Below are positions 5,587-51,233 of a stretch of 64,000 bases of DNA, piece by piece; within the stretch, counting starts at the first letter, position 1, and each line of letters starts with the position of its first letter. The notes beneath the pieces were generated by a model, which saw nothing but the letters and a program-made list of their open reading frames with translations, made no database searches and had not been told where the DNA came from. This stretch comes from Citrus sinensis (lineage: Eukaryota; Streptophyta; Magnoliopsida; Sapindales; Rutaceae): positions 310,001 to 374,000 of the forward strand of contig NC_068559.1 of the NCBI RefSeq assembly GCF_022201045.2, written 5' to 3'. The translations under genes were made by a program, and so were the position numbers.

Positions 5587-7375
5587 GAACTTTGGAACTT
5601 AGTTGTCAAAAATTCCCAAACAAAATTAAAAATAAAAATTGAACTTTGGAACCAACCATTTTGTACCTGAAATCACCAAGAACTCCAATGAGTTATGGCT
5701 TTTTGGATTTGAACTTAATAAGCATATTGCATATTTGCAAAACATGATTATTATGTTGAGTAAAATGGGATACTGGATCGTTGCTTATTTAATCTGATGC
5801 CTCTTCTCTTCAGCACCCCCCTCTACTTTTGTTTTTTGACCATCTGTTCTGCATCTTTTAGGTTATGGCTTGCAGGCAAAGGTCAGATCTTTTCATCAAC
5901 CTCCCAGCTCTGCAAACACTGGACAATATGCTTATTGTAAGATTTAATTTTGATAATTCATATTCCGTTATTCTTAGACTTAGAAGTCATTTTAAGTTTA
6001 CCCTCTGGTTTATACTATGACAGGATGTATTGGATAGTTTTAGCAACACTGAGTTCTGGTATGTTGATCAAGGGATTATAAGCCCAGAAGCAGATGGGTC
6101 AGCCTCTTTCCGCGAAACGTTACAACGACAAGAAGAGAAGTGGTGGCTGCCTGTACCCCGTGTTCCGCCTCGTGGTCTTACTGAAAATTCAAGAAAGCAA
6201 CTGGATCACTTGCGAGAAAGCACAAACCAAATCTTGAAAGCTGCAATGGCCATCAACAGCATTGGCTTAGGAGAAATGGAAGTGCCTGAATCATACTTGG
6301 AAACTCTGCCAAAGGTTCGGACATCAAACATTGCTCATAATTTATATAAGCAACATTTTATAAGATTACCCAAATTAGTTCCTATGGAATCTGAATTAAT
6401 TTTCATTAATTTGTTACTAGAATGGGAGAGCATCTCTTGGGGAATTTATTTACAGGTATATTACATCGGATCAGTTCTCCGCTGATTGCCTACTGGATTG
6501 CCTTGACCTATCTTCTGAACACATTGTTCTTGACATTGCAAACCGTGTGGAAGCCACAATATATATTTGGCGTCGAAGAGCTCACTCGAAGCCCCCTCTC
6601 CATTCAAGTCGATCCACTGCAAAATCATCATGGGGGATGGTGAAAGATCTAATGGTCGATGGAGATAAGAGGGAAATGCTTGCAGAAAGAGCAGAAAGCC
6701 TCTTGCTTTGCTTGAAGCAGCGGTTCCCTAGCCTGCCTCAAACTACATTAGATACCAGCAAGATCCAGTGCAACAAGGTTCAATTTCTCTCTTCAAGTAT
6801 TAACTTGTTACTCATATTATTGCATTTGGTTTTTCACACATTACATGTAAACTTTACAGGATGTGGGAAAATCAATTCTTGAGAGCTATTCAAGAGTTCT
6901 TGAGAGTCTAGCATTTAACATTGGGGCTCGTATTGATGATTTAATATATGTGGACGACTTGACTAAAACTACAGAAAAATTGTCATCTGTTCCCACAAAG
7001 AGTATGATAGCTCATAAGAAAGTTTCAATCCCATATAGTGTGCCGGTCTCAAGCACTCCATTTAAATCAACTCTTGCATCACCAAACTGCTCACTGGGAT
7101 CTCTCATTAGTCCTGCAAGAGGGGAGAGAACTCCATTTCTCCACAATAGCAGCAGCAATCAGAACAAACCCCAGCGCCGTGGATTGGGGGTGAAGAGAGT
7201 CCTGACCAATTATCTTGGTGCTGAGTCAAAAGCAAAGATAAGTGGCAACCCAACTGAGGATTCATGTACAATTCCAGCAAATGGTACTGAAGATAAGGAG
7301 AATCAAAATAACTTATCGGCACACCCAAATGGCACAAAAACAAGACAGAGTCAGCCACGATATATGGTCACTTGA
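4485..7375 (+). CDS. ROPGEF: Rop guanine nucleotide exchange factor (PRONE domain), 7 exons
   Basis: Predicted exons are 4485-4749, 5105-5221, 5311-5465, 5862-5936, 6024-6314, 6421-6777 and 6860-7375. All junctions are GT-AG, phases agree, and the sum is 592 codons including stop. The PRONE catalytic domain spans about residues 90-455. Hallmarks are [71 protein letters not shown] and [20 protein letters not shown]. The acidic Ser-rich N-terminus and the polar C-terminus (about 456-591, with [12 protein letters not shown]) are the variable regulatory tails of the family. PRONE proteins catalyse GDP release from plant ROP GTPases at the plasma membrane, usually downstream of receptor-like kinases, in polar growth and signalling. 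Sequence style is closest to the RopGEF1-5 group. The exact orthologue is uncertain, although gene order hints at RopGEF5. Confidence 0.95.
5558..5577. repeat. Poly(C) tract in RopGEF intron 3
   Basis: Twenty consecutive C residues followed by ten A residues, within intron 3 (5466-5861). Likely length-polymorphic and prone to assembly error. Confidence 0.8.
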
Positions 7376-9383: not shown

Positions 9384-10396
9384 TTTGTTTTCCCCATTAT
9401 ATGTTTTGTAATGCTTTTGGTAGATACGAGAGATTTTGATTTTGATGTTGATTTGCAGTATGTGTGGAATTGAAGCGATAAGGCTGCCAGACAAGAGTTT
9501 GTGTTTGTGCAACACTATGAATCAATAGTTGTTGTGCAATAAAAAAAAATCATTAATATAAATCTTAGGTAGTTAGTAAATATTAGCTGTCCAGCAAAAG
9601 TTTCTCATTTATCAAACACTTTTGGTGCCATTGCTTTTAATCAATAGCTGCTGGTAATAAAATCTCTAGTCATCGATTATAATTCCATGAGTAGTTGGCA
9701 ACTCTAGTTGTCAAGCAAAAGTTGGTATTTCAAAAATATCTGTGTAGTAAAATCATTTGTTGTCCCATGAAAGTAAGTGGATAATCGGTAACCATTAGCT
9801 ACCATGTAAAAGTTGACGATTATCAAACACTACTAGTTGAGCAGAAGCACTACAGTTAAAAGAGTCATGCTCAGCAAAGCTATTTGGCTTTGTTTGATTT
9901 TCAAGATAATTTCTAAGAAAGCTCCTCAATGTTAATCCATTTTGAATTTTTTCGGTGCAATTGTCACTTTCTTAGAGGCTAGAAGCTTATGCTTTCTACT
10001 AGATTGGTAATGCTACCGCGGTTGGTTTGTGCCACAAAATACTTGTGTTTTGCACAAATGTGTTAACATAGCTTGGTAGATTTCTGAAATAATCCATTGC
10101 TATGCTGTCAAATGTCAATTGCTCTTGAACGCTCTGCTTTGCACTTTGATTTTTAAGGATAAAAAGTTAGTGGAGTGGAATGGTGGCAAAAACTTTTTTC
10201 AAGCACTAACCGTCATTGGCTTAAAATAGTGAGGTGATCTTAATTTTTAACTATGAGGGTGTTGGTGAAGGAATAAACAAAACGACTTAGTGCTTCACCC
10301 ACTATGATTAGTGGCTTTGACATGTGAGCATCCTTGAGCTCGTTGTTCTACTATAAGTACTACCAAATTGTTTAGTCTATGAATTGCATTGTAGAA
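9384..10396. other. Intergenic region with degenerate short repeats
   Basis: Contains several imperfect copies of an 'agttgtccagcaaaagtt' string with 'atcaaacactt' (about 9585-9850), suggesting decayed transposon ends. A TATA-like CTATAAGTA at 10351-10359 precedes the next gene. No protein frame is supported. Confidence 0.5.
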
Positions 10397-10894
10397 ATGG
10401 GAGCTGCAATGAAATACACTTGCATTCTAGTGTTTCTAGTGATTCTGGGCTGTGCTGGGTTCAATGGAGTTATTGGTGCTGGTGAATGTGGAAAATCTTC
10501 CCCTGATAGAGAAGCTTTCAAACTGGCTCCTTGTGCAATGGCGGCACAAGATCCTAATGCTGATGTTTCCAGCCAGTGCTGCATGCAGGTACAGAAACTT
10601 GGCCAGAATCCAAGCTGCCTCTGTGCTGTTATGCTGTCTAATGTTGCTAAGAGCTCTGGTATCAAGCCTGATGTTGCAATAACCATCCCCAAGCGCTGCA
10701 ACCTTGCTGATCGCCCGGTTGGTTACAAGTGTGGAGGTATACAGAGATACTGCTACTGTTTCTAATTAAGCTTTTGATTCAGTTTCCTTTTTTTTTTAAT
10801 TATTATTATTAATTTTATTTTTAAAGCTTCAATTGCAGCTTCCAGCAATTGACTGAACTGCTTGTTTCATATTTCAGCTTACACATTGCCTTGA
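10397..10894 (+). CDS. Non-specific lipid-transfer-like protein (8-Cys motif), 2 exons
   Basis: Exon 1 is 10397-10736 and exon 2 is 10878-10894, joined GT-AG in phase 1, giving 118 residues. The ATG at 10397 is chosen because the upstream in-frame ATG at 10379 lies only about 20 bases past the TATA-like box; 10409 is also possible. Residues 1-28 form a signal peptide (hydrophobic core CILVFLVILGCAGF). The mature part has the eight-cysteine order C..C..CC..CxC..C..C: ECG, PCA, QCC, SCLC, KRC and YKC. This is the bifunctional inhibitor/LTP fold, expected in the cell wall, where members bind lipids or act as inhibitors. The spliced end reads KCGAYTLP, as I recall for the Arabidopsis At5g05960 type. 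Reading on through the intron would instead add spurious cysteines. Confidence 0.9.
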
Positions 10895-30952: not shown

Positions 30953-31328
30953 TCACATTGCTTTCAGCCCTTGAACTGGTGAAATCTCGTCAAGTTCTGG
31001 TAATTTGTCGCGTCCCGGATCGTCTTCAATACGATAAATTTTGCTCCGGTCAACGGCCAATACACCTTGAACTCCTGCATGGGTGAATTTCAATTTGAGT
31101 GTGTGTATATATATATGCATAGATGGAAAATGGATAAATTAATTAAGAAAAGAAAATGACTTCATTTTCATGTGCAAAATTAATTAATAATATTAATCAT
31201 ACATAGAGTCTTTCTCTAGCACATTCAGGATTTTATAAATTGTAAAAAGCTCTTAAAACATTGTAATCTGATTTTTCAATTGTTTTCAATGTTGTCAGAT
31301 TTTTTACAATATTGTTATACTCCAAATT

Positions 31329-31332
<4 letters not shown>

Positions 31333-31366
<34 letters not shown>
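31333..31366. repeat. (AT)n microsatellite in I9-gene intron 3
   Basis: About 17 AT units just downstream of the exon 3 donor. Confidence 0.9.
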
Positions 31367-31369
<3 letters not shown>

Positions 31370-31444
31370 GGATCATACTTTGTAGCTTTTCTGCCTCATT
31401 TACAGTGAGTCTGGCTGCAAATCTTGAACCGAGGTTATTGTAAC

Positions 31445-32227
31445 TGTTAGTGCAAATTTTGTCCCAACTTATGATGGTGAGTTCATTCTTTGGGCTGATC
31501 TTTATGGGCCTTTGTATATACTCTTCTGAGTCCGCTTCCTTAGGCAATCAAAAGGTCCTTGTCCTGTGATACTCTACAAACATAAGAAAATTATTAGAGG
31601 GCCGGCTTTGCCGGCGTATACCCTCCGACGGTCAAGTCAGTCATCGGACTTTTGAAAATATGAATTTAGAAAGAGAAAGATTAGAGGGAGAAAGTTAGCA
31701 TTTTTCCCTTTTGAGTCTCTTTTTTGTCTTATCTTTTGATGTGAATGAAAGACATATTTATCGACCAAACTGATTTGACTTGGGTCCTAGTTATTTTGAT
31801 GACAAATGTCATTGTTCTTGTGACATTTGACAACACTTGTCCTCTAGTGCCCATGTGGATTGACACATGGATATACAAACTTGTCTACAAATTAGAGGAA
31901 TGAATGTTTTATCCTTAGGTTATTTTTACTAAGACCTTGGGATCATAAGAACCTTCAAACTTAGGAGGTTTGTCCTAGGGTAAGAGCCTAGAACCTCAGC
32001 ACATTTTAAACTTTAAATCCTTACCACCTAGTTGATTTATCCTAGGTGATTTGTCTTAGGATAGGAATCTAGGACCTTGGCTCCTTTTGGGTTTTGAAAC
32101 CTTGTTACTTAGGAGGATCATTCTAGGTCATTTGTCCACCACTTCGTGGGCTTAATTGGGAGGAAATCTATTAGATTGGCCTTATTTATTTGGGCCTTAT
32201 TAGACTTATTTTAATTTTGGTCCAACA
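31445..32227. mobile_element. Solo LTR (783 bp) with 5-bp target duplication GTAAC
   Basis: Starts TGTTAGTGC and ends GGTCCAACA, flanked by GTAAC at 31440-31444 and 32228-32232. The interior has 'ccctccgacggtcaagtcag', a string common in plant LTRs, and no coding region. TG...CA ends with a 5-bp duplication are the retrotransposon signature. Without internal sequence it is a solo LTR. Disregarding it rejoins an open I9 exon in frame. Confidence 0.88.
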
Positions 32228-32618
32228 GTAACTGTACACAAGAGATTCAGATGGAGTGCTGTACATTCCCACATGCCATTTGAGACAACATCAGTATGGG
32301 TTAGAATCTAATGGCAATTTACAACAATTAATGAATTTAATTAAATATATGAAATTAAAACTTAGATGCCCTCAAGAACCTTGTCAAGAATTTGAAGATA
32401 AGCATTCCTTGTAGATCCTATAGAGGAGTCCAATGACACTATGTACACCTGCATTTATACATATGTATAATTGAAACGAATCAACAAGTGATCAGAACAG
32501 AGCATCATAAATTTGATGATGAACTTGCCTTTCTTAAGCCATTGTTCTCTGCATGGCACAGCAGAATGCCCAGAAATGTGAGGGTGATCGCTAATATTGG
32601 CAGCAGTAATTTTGCCAT

Positions 32619-35001: not shown

Positions 35002-39449
<4,448 letters not shown>

Positions 39450-39540: not shown

Positions 39541-40914
39541 GTCAAGGTTCGCGTATATCACATCAAAACCCCTATTGTGAAGCTCGCCAACAAAGCCGGT
39601 CCGTACATTAGCCGGCATTGTCATCTAAAAATTTTGTGTTTTAAAGCAAATTTCAAAATCAATTTCATCATAAACCTACACATCCTTGCTAATTGACAAA
39701 AAGGGAAAAAAAAAAAAATTCGTACTTCGGGTAACATAGCATATTGGATGTACAAATTTCCTTTCTCCAAAACTTCTGTTTCCATCCTATTGTTTCATAA
39801 GTGAACATCCAAAGTCCAAACTCCATTCCTTTTATTTGGTTTCGAAAAAAAAGATAGTAATATACTGTAACATATACAAAGACTATTGCATTATGAACTT
39901 AGATCTAGTATTGACCTAAGATATGTACTAATCTTTGAAGATCTTGTGCCAATAAGCACCAATCACATTAGTGTAAAAAGTTAAGCACTGACTTTGAATT
40001 CAAAACATTGTCTACCAGAATTAATGTATAATATAATGTTGTTTATCTGCATCAAAATATACAACATTAAGCAGTAAAAGAGGATCTATTTGTCCTTTAG
40101 AAAAATAGTAAGAGTTTAACGATATATTTTTAAAAAGGCCTGTCTAGTTATTCATTGAGTTAAATGTTAAGAGTTTGGGTGTCATTTTTCATCTTAAAAA
40201 ATATTAATAATATATTAACAATTAATTAATTGAAGAGTTCTTCTTTCAAAAAAGTTATTCCCTTAATTATTGCTTCTAATGTAACTTTTAAGTGACGAGT
40301 ATTTCATGTTTTAGAATACCAATTTAAGACCAAATTAACCATGCTAATTCACAAAGGAGAATTGTTAATTATCGCTATTTATTTTAATTTTTATTGATTA
40401 TATACTGTAAAAATCGTCACAGTTTATTTCCTATGTGCACAGCCACAGGACTATATTGTTGAGAATCAAATAAAACGACATTGAATGAAGTTTTCAAAGA
40501 CGTAATCCGCACTTGTCAAAGGGATAATCTGCACTTGTCAAAGATACGATCCACGTCGAACGGATTGACACATTTCCTTCCGTATTCACATATGTAAACT
40601 TTGAAAAAAATGTAATCTCTGCATCTATAAATAACTCTCAATATATAATATTTTAATTTAAGAAATGAAAACAAGTTTCTTCGTATATAACCAACAGGAC
40701 GGAAATTAAGATTCTTTTGAATATCTAATGTTTCTCCATTGGGTGCAACGAAAACCTCTTTGTTACACTTTTGTGCATTTTCCAGCAAAAAAACAAAAAA
40801 AAAGTATAGTATTCGCCGAATAGCCAGCACAAGTGCGGCAGCTGTCACTGTGACTTAGAATAAAGAAACGATGAAGTGAAAATGTATCTTCAAATTTTAA
40901 GATAGAATATAAGC
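39541..40914. other. Intergenic region between subtilase 1 and the pseudogene
   Basis: AT-rich. A 330-base minus frame at 40516-40848 has no recognisable similarity and is probably chance. Confidence 0.4.
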
Positions 40915-42080
40915 AACAGTGGGGCTCCTTACTTGATGCACATCATGATCCCACACCAAAGCGGCAGAAACAATTTTGGATTCATTCATCGTCCATTCGC
41001 TTGTCAATACCTAAAAGACTGTTTCTTTCCAAGAGATGTGAAAGATAAAACGTCGGGATTAGCTCGTGTTCATAGCCCTGCTGGCTCGCAGAAGCTTTAC
41101 AGGTAGACGCCGGCAATCCAACACAGTGGTGAGCCCAAAGCTTTTAATGAGCTTGGGCTAATTTATAGATTTACGGGAGGAAATATGTATTGAATATCCG
41201 TGTGTGCGTGTGTGACTCTATATATATGCCAAGTAAACTTATAATATAAATTATTAAAATTGCAACATAAAAAAATAATTTACGAAATTCTTTTTTATTT
41301 TATTTTATTGATAGAGAATGTGAAATACTTGAATAATTTGACATAATGAAAACAAAAAGAGTAAGTATGATTGTAAAGTAGAAAATCAAGAAATTATGAA
41401 AATATTGTTAATTATTACTATATTTCGTTTTGTAATTTTCTAATATTAGCGAGGATGTTACGATATATTAATATACTTTTCTTCTATTAGACCAAACCAC
41501 AATATTTTTTGTAATAAGTTAAAGCAATAATAAATTTTTATCTCCTACTGATTTCAAATTCATTCAAGAAATATATGATGTAATCATTTTATAAAATAAA
41601 TCTCTAACTACAATTTAAAAAAGAATTAGTAGTTGAATTAGGGGTGTAATTAAAAATAAAATAAAAACTCTATTCTTGTATGAAATATTATATAATCTAA
41701 AGGGTATTGATGAAATTTTCCAAGCCCGCTCCAGCCCTATAGGAGGTTCACCACTGCATCCAACATCCATGACAATTCGATCGGCTGCAAGCTCGAGGAC
41801 TGAGGTTTATTAGACCAAAAGAGCGAGATTGGAAAAAGCAAATGAAGGGTAATTTCGGACTGAAACTGTTGCATGAGCGGCTTCAACGATATATTTTCAC
41901 CAGTAATTGTAACTAAGGTTTATCTTGATTTTTTATTTTGACAACGATATAACATATCGGAGAAGTGTAGTGGTGCATCCTTGGGCCTTGGTGGCCGCCC
42001 AAAAAGTTTATGCATGTAATGAATGATCTCAGCATCATATACCAATCTAGGCTCTTTGTTCAGCTCAGAGGAGTACACAT
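40915..42080 (-). pseudogene. Subtilase C-terminal pseudogene, split by a hAT-like insertion
   Basis: Minus-strand pieces match the last exon of the neighbouring subtilases. RLVYDAEIIHYMHKLFG (about 42000-42060) corresponds to GLVYDAEAIDYVKFLCG. AHATVSVRNYPSFAFS (about 41835-41885) corresponds to IHATVWDLNYPSLALS. VMDVGLPASTCKASASQQG spans the insertion at 41124-41756, and KIVSAALVWDHDVHQVRSPT (about 40925-40985) matches the tail. Frameshifts and stops are present and the upstream exons are missing. It lies between the two intact genes, so it is a third, decayed member of the tandem array. Confidence 0.85.
41124..41756. mobile_element. Non-autonomous hAT-like element inside the subtilase pseudogene
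   Basis: The left end CAGTGGTGAGCCC is inverted at the right end (GGTTCACCACTG). The 8-bp string ATCCAACA stands at 41116-41123 and 41758-41765, with one extra C between the right end and its copy. Disregarding the element restores continuity of the subtilase-like frame across the junction. Interior is AT-rich and non-coding. Confidence 0.8.

Positions 42081-43238: not shown

Positions 43239-51233
<7,995 letters not shown>

Follow-up and report, generated by a model that had tools for sequence, protein, structure and literature searches.

A stand-alone I9 propeptide gene with two breaks, lying beside two subtilase genes, and its intact-looking sister gene

The window analyzed here is a stretch of 64,000 nucleotides (G000:C4:310001-374000), and the genome searched with it is a 299.7-Mb assembly of 11 contigs, to judge from its genes that of a plant. 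One minus-strand gene of the window encodes an I9 propeptide domain, lies close to two subtilase genes and is interrupted by a long terminal repeat (LTR). The locus raises the question whether this gene is a stand-alone inhibitor matched to the neighboring proteases and lost to the repeat, as a preliminary description had proposed, or a piece of one of those proteases, or a duplicate that has decayed in the ordinary way. No descriptions of this locus were found in the literature searched.

The window gene has four exons, running from 32618 to 30953 on the minus strand, which encode a signal-peptide-like leader and an I9 propeptide domain and then reach a stop. The extent of exon 2 was taken up to the end of homology with a sister gene on the same contig, described below. 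The parts of the gene are as follows:

32529..32618, minus strand: exon 1, with the ATG and the hydrophobic leader MAKLLLPILAITLTFLGILLCHAENNGLRK
32366..32448, minus strand: exon 2, with the start of the I9 domain (VYIVSLDSSIGSTRNAYLQILDKVLEG..); 83 nt, the same in the sister gene
32228..32258, minus strand: exon 3a, encoding ..TPSESLVYSY and ending with the first GTTAC
31379..31439, minus strand: exon 3b, the second part of exon 3 (NNLGSRFAARLTVNEAEKLQ)
30953..31074, minus strand: exon 4, with the end of the I9 domain, an acidic non-protease tail and TGA

The introns have phases 0, 2 and 1. Exon 1 ends in a GC donor (AAG/GCAAGT, intron 1 starting at 32528-32527) and has about 66% identity with exon 1 of the sister; a hydrophobic leader was judged by eye to be present in both proteins. 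When the LTR and one GTTAC were removed by script, exon 3 came to 92 nt, equal to that of the sister, and yielded LVYSYNNLGSRFAARL. The protein read through in this manner scores 36.8 bits against PF05922 (cut-off 21.2), the unjoined exons 3b and 4 score 21.0 bits, just under the cut-off, and exon 2 by itself gave no PF05922 match. A protease domain is absent, the frame being stopped after exon 4, and no S8 match was found within 10 kb downstream. The last 39 aa of the protein, used as a genome query (E<=1), matched themselves and nothing elsewhere.

The interruption of exon 3 is made up of two features:

31445..32227, minus strand: LTR of 783 bp, TGTTGG..CTAACA (TG..CA ends), splitting exon 3
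32228-32232 (first copy) and 31440..31444 (second copy), minus strand: target-site duplication GTTAC of 5 bp, flanking the LTR

The LTR is called solo because the window holds no partner for it; blastn found no second copy inside the window beyond three matches of 14-17 bp. Together with the TG..CA ends, the 5-bp duplication and the copies dispersed elsewhere, every mark of a solo LTR that was looked for is present. The genome search with 31435-32223 returned 51 matching pieces, the window's own copy counted, as is proper to a dispersed repeat, and the closest of the copies compared differs from the window LTR at 25 of 781 sites. The orientation, judged from a primer-binding-like site that follows the LTR in its relatives, is the same as that of the gene. 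Since a solo LTR has no partner, the insertion is not datable from its own LTR pair. In two full-length relatives the paired LTRs differ at 0 of 768 and at 5 of 768 sites, which shows recent activity of the family but gives no date for the window copy. The relative with identical LTRs (0/768) is a full-length element at G000:C9:4014001-4027000, read as L058 and L059. Against PF04195 (‘putative gypsy type transposon’) an internal ORF of one LTR relative scored 21.7 bits, short of the cut-off of 26.2; this match came from the one long internal ORF of the L058/L059 element that gave any hit, and no ORFs of >=150 aa were listed in L059.

When the exon-3 frame runs on into the LTR, 13 residues are encoded there before the first stop, and 21 stops are met altogether. 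There are also 18 GT/GC-AG pairs which could in principle excise the LTR with exon 3 staying open, so the LTR alone need not kill the gene, and the argument for loss is carried by a change at another place:

32364..32365, minus strand: lost intron-2 5' splice site, CT here against GT in the sister gene and in the neighboring subtilases S1 and S2

The boundary of exon 2 and intron 2 thus reads AT/CT in the window copy and AG/GT in the other three. For the joining of exon 2 to exon 3 (at the LVYSY codons) 31 donor/acceptor pairs were tried, 11 of which are in frame. Four of the 11 are open, all of them AT-AC pairs which we take to be without a minor-intron signal, and no GT/GC-AG pair among the 31 is both in frame and open. 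With the donor lost and no such pair to replace it, the gene would be non-working even if the LTR is set aside. The donor loss, as read in a single assembly, is a second lesion, independent of the LTR.

It has to be considered whether the gene still works nonetheless. The LTR might be spliced out or lie within an intron, with a cryptic donor rescuing exon 2 so that a variant inhibitor is made, or a short secreted peptide might come from the first exons alone. The 18 LTR-removing pairs speak for this, as does a weak GT (AAG/GTTCTT) inside exon 2; against it, that GT leads out of frame, the four open in-frame pairs are all AT-AC, and exon 2, if left unspliced, runs to a stop two codons past LEG (GGC ATC TAA). 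We regard a working gene as improbable, and the window copy, with its donor lost and an LTR in exon 3, has no open, spliceable reading frame. Much of the preliminary description is borne out by these results: the four minus-strand exons with leader and I9 domain and no protease, the frame that is restored when the LTR and one 5-bp copy are set aside, and the solo LTR of 783 bp that breaks exon 3. Its claim of loss by the LTR holds in so far as the LTR splits exon 3, but not as regards a sole lesion.

Apart from the window's own exons, the genome search with the read-through protein hit an exon 3 at C4:262600-262698 (64% over 33 residues, E 1.7e-4), which belongs to the first of the two further copies given here:

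G000:C4:262178-262965, plus strand: sister I9 gene (L045 6178-6965), four exons, open, 126 aa
C4:829337-829426: third exon-1 copy (in L062, G000:C4:829331-830230), with a GC donor

The sister lies about 78 kb from the window gene. Both have four exons with introns of phases 0, 2 and 1, and both encode a leader, an I9 domain and a short tail that is not protease sequence; the frame of the sister is open and spliceable by sequence. Its protein scores 47.3 bits against PF05922 (cut-off 21.2), above the 36.8 of the window copy, and for both proteins the best PDB match is 4yn3 chain B (E 0.0019 for the window copy and 5.9e-11 for the sister). The two tails share EISP and little else. No S8 match was found within 10 kb downstream of the sister; C4 has four S8 matches, all within S1 and S2, the nearest being 82.9 kb from the sister, and over C4:246001-310000 tblastn with S1 gave weak matches to the sister's own I9 exons and to nothing else. 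The sister, in our view, probably adds a new member to the stand-alone I9 kind; that it inhibits in trans is an inference from its family.

The sister protein gave no match to NCBIfam profiles. Against MORF_dom of Pfam, where the cut-off is 27, it reached 26.9 bits, with weak matches to MORF9 structures, which hints that I9 and MORF domains may have a fold in common. As a genome query it gave 32 matches and recovered exon 1 of the window gene while missing exons 2-4, so further members of the family may be overlooked. Beside the third exon-1 copy no further exons were found in the 900 bp read. The copies on C4 are one intact-looking, one doubly broken and one of which exon 1 alone was found. 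Intron 1 starts with GC in the window gene, the sister (L045 6265-6266), L062 and S2, and with GT in S1.

Next to the window gene lies a cluster of subtilase sequences:

35002..39449, minus strand: S1, a cucumisin-type subtilase that looks intact, its ten exons assembled by script
40906..42054, minus strand: decayed 3' subtilase remnant between S1 and S2, found by tblastn with S1
43239..51233, minus strand: S2, intact-looking cucumisin-type subtilase, exons 4-10 by script and exons 1-3 by eye

S1 and S2 are upstream of the window gene on the same strand, and both carry stretches which we take to be the D, H and S motifs. The remnant consists of up to four pieces, one with an internal stop. On the plus strand of the window, exons of a PRONE (Rop exchange factor) protein and a lipid-transfer-type protein were seen at 6030-7375 and 10379-10765.

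This setting suggests another origin, namely that the window gene is the 5′ fragment of a neighboring cucumisin-type subtilase, cut off behind its fourth exon, and at no time encoded an inhibitor. Strand and cluster agree with it, S1 and the I9 gene have identical phases in their first three introns (0, 2, 1), and the remnant is a decayed 3′ subtilase piece in the same cluster. The propeptide tree, in which the I9 pair and 12 protease propeptides make up 14 rows aligned over 80 columns, tells against it. The window gene and its sister are joined at 99/99, and S1, S2 and cucumisin are joined separately at 96/94; only 2 of the 11 inner branches are so well supported, and the tree does not fix where the I9 pair belongs at greater depth. 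These separate groups argue that the window gene did not come from S1 or S2 by clipping, and the grouping with S1, S2 and cucumisin propeptides, as would mark an SBT4-type gene or fragment, is not seen for the I9 pair. The sister, far from any protease, has the matching layout and stops after a similar short tail, and from window position 1 to 35,004 no piece of a protease was detected by tblastn with S1 (E<=10). Both the tree and the sister gene led to the rejection of a truncated neighbor, and such an origin is rated unlikely.

The sequence divergence of the pair was then considered. Over 123 codons dN is 0.299, dS 0.807 and dN/dS 0.37, with a bootstrap pN/pS of median 0.50 (2.5-97.5%, 0.37-0.67). 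Intron 1 is more similar between the two genes than shuffled sequence (22 against a shuffle maximum of 13), and introns 2 and 3 are no more similar than shuffled sequence. The divergence values and the intron comparison together show an old split with at least one line under constraint. The branch of the window copy is the longer one in the tree (0.83 vs 0.26). Unique residues in window copy and sister, counted with seven outgroups, are 4/3, 4/0, 5/1, 5/2, 8/5, 5/2 and 7/3, higher in the window copy with 7 of 7 outgroups, but the raw counts are small and the outgroups overlap. An R in the window copy also replaces a conserved glycine (the G before F/V) which is kept by 8 of 8 aligned relatives. 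Branch length, unique residues and the lost glycine fit a relaxed constraint in the window copy and give no date of its death. The dN/dS of 0.37 covers the whole pair, and the window copy may have functioned for most of its life.

Across the genome 53 I9 matches were found, and 51 of the 53 have an S8 match on the same strand within 10 kb downstream. Genes with a split I9 domain are undercounted in this way, and for them the number is a minimum: neither the window gene nor the sister is included, because their I9 domains are divided among short exons. The two matches without a downstream S8 are C7:25492255 and C5:35054872. The former was rejected as a stand-alone gene since a decayed S8 piece follows it. 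Other short-frame I9 matches were rejected likewise: eight loci were inspected by eye or with tblastn (L052-L057, L060, L061), and every one carries protease sequence. The exon at C5:35054872 (within L063, G000:C5:35054772-35055571) is an I9 exon with phase 2 in and 1 out, and there is no S8 match within 635 kb of it. From a motif we presume it to be of the type of SPI-1, reportedly the subtilisin propeptide-like inhibitor 1 of Arabidopsis described by Hohl et al. in 2017. Exon 3 of this gene alone was read, and it was left out of the propeptide tree. Genome searches with the proteins of the window gene and the sister gave no match to it.

Among known systems the nearest in kind is SPI-1. Plants have endogenous subtilase inhibitors related to prodomains, SPI-1 included, whose in vivo targets are given as unknown in the part of the source used here (PMC11371169). 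The likeness lies in a plant I9-domain protein without a protease domain, as far as the excerpts of two papers describe it (PMC11371169, PMC7017114); the difference is that the window gene and its sister have an acidic tail containing EISP, and that the window copy is broken. Tomato SlPI50 is placed in the excerpted text among the simple inhibitors with a single I9 domain, as a member of the I9 family, and it resembles the I9 pair in that single domain, the comparison being by description only (PMC7017114). The cucumisin-type propeptide (PDB 4yn3 chain B; S1, S2) shares the I9 domain and, for S1, the intron phases, but belongs to a protease precursor and forms a separate group in the tree. SUB1-ProM of Plasmodium is, in the sections of the paper drawn on here, a tested inhibitor conserved through the genus, with no significant sequence similarity outside Plasmodium (PMC6993865). 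According to the same sections it is secreted and resembles a propeptide standing by itself, and its gene has subtilase genes next to it, all read in one direction; it comes from a parasite and was compared with the window gene by layout only (PMC6993865).

SUB1-ProM, in those sections an inhibitor gene beside its proteases (PMC6993865), is also the precedent for what the preliminary description had supposed, a cluster of proteases and a matching stand-alone inhibitor, recently lost through the LTR alone and with a regulatory consequence. The stand-alone layout and the adjacency are real. The two intact-looking subtilases upstream on the same strand are there, and the search for relatives with protease exons attached came out in favor of the stand-alone reading, the one intact relative stopping after a short tail with no S8 match within ~83 kb. 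The word ‘matching’ is not supported, since the I9 pair and S1, S2 and cucumisin form separate groups, the intact sister is 78 kb off and does not adjoin a protease, and no evidence links the inhibitor to S1 or S2. There is moreover the second lesion, and with a sister gene surviving and a presumed, probable SPI-1-type gene on C5, the ‘notable regulatory loss’ has less force. We hold a lost matched cluster to be very improbable.

The locus is, in our judgment, probably a decayed duplicate in a small plant family of secreted stand-alone I9 genes, SPI-1-like in kind, and the window copy is in all likelihood a duplicate that has died in the ordinary way, from a kind of gene already known. If the analogy with SPI-1 of Arabidopsis holds, the sister protein would be secreted into the apoplast and there bind and block mature subtilases in trans, in the manner of a propeptide. 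After the duplication the window copy would have become dispensable and its constraint relaxed, and with two independent breaks, the LTR and the lost donor, it would make no full inhibitor at present. It can also be suggested, tentatively and with more doubt than belief, that the C4 pair is a second plant lineage of stand-alone I9 genes and not SPI-1, having arisen separately from a subtilase propeptide gene by loss of the protease exons and gain of a short acidic tail containing EISP, and then been pruned copy by copy.

The locus in the window is of interest chiefly as a dead copy, and it warns that bridging exon 3 over the LTR is not the same as a working gene. The sister gene is easily overlooked, its I9 domain being spread across four short exons, and with its different tail it is a candidate for testing the specificity of plant inhibitors of the SPI kind.
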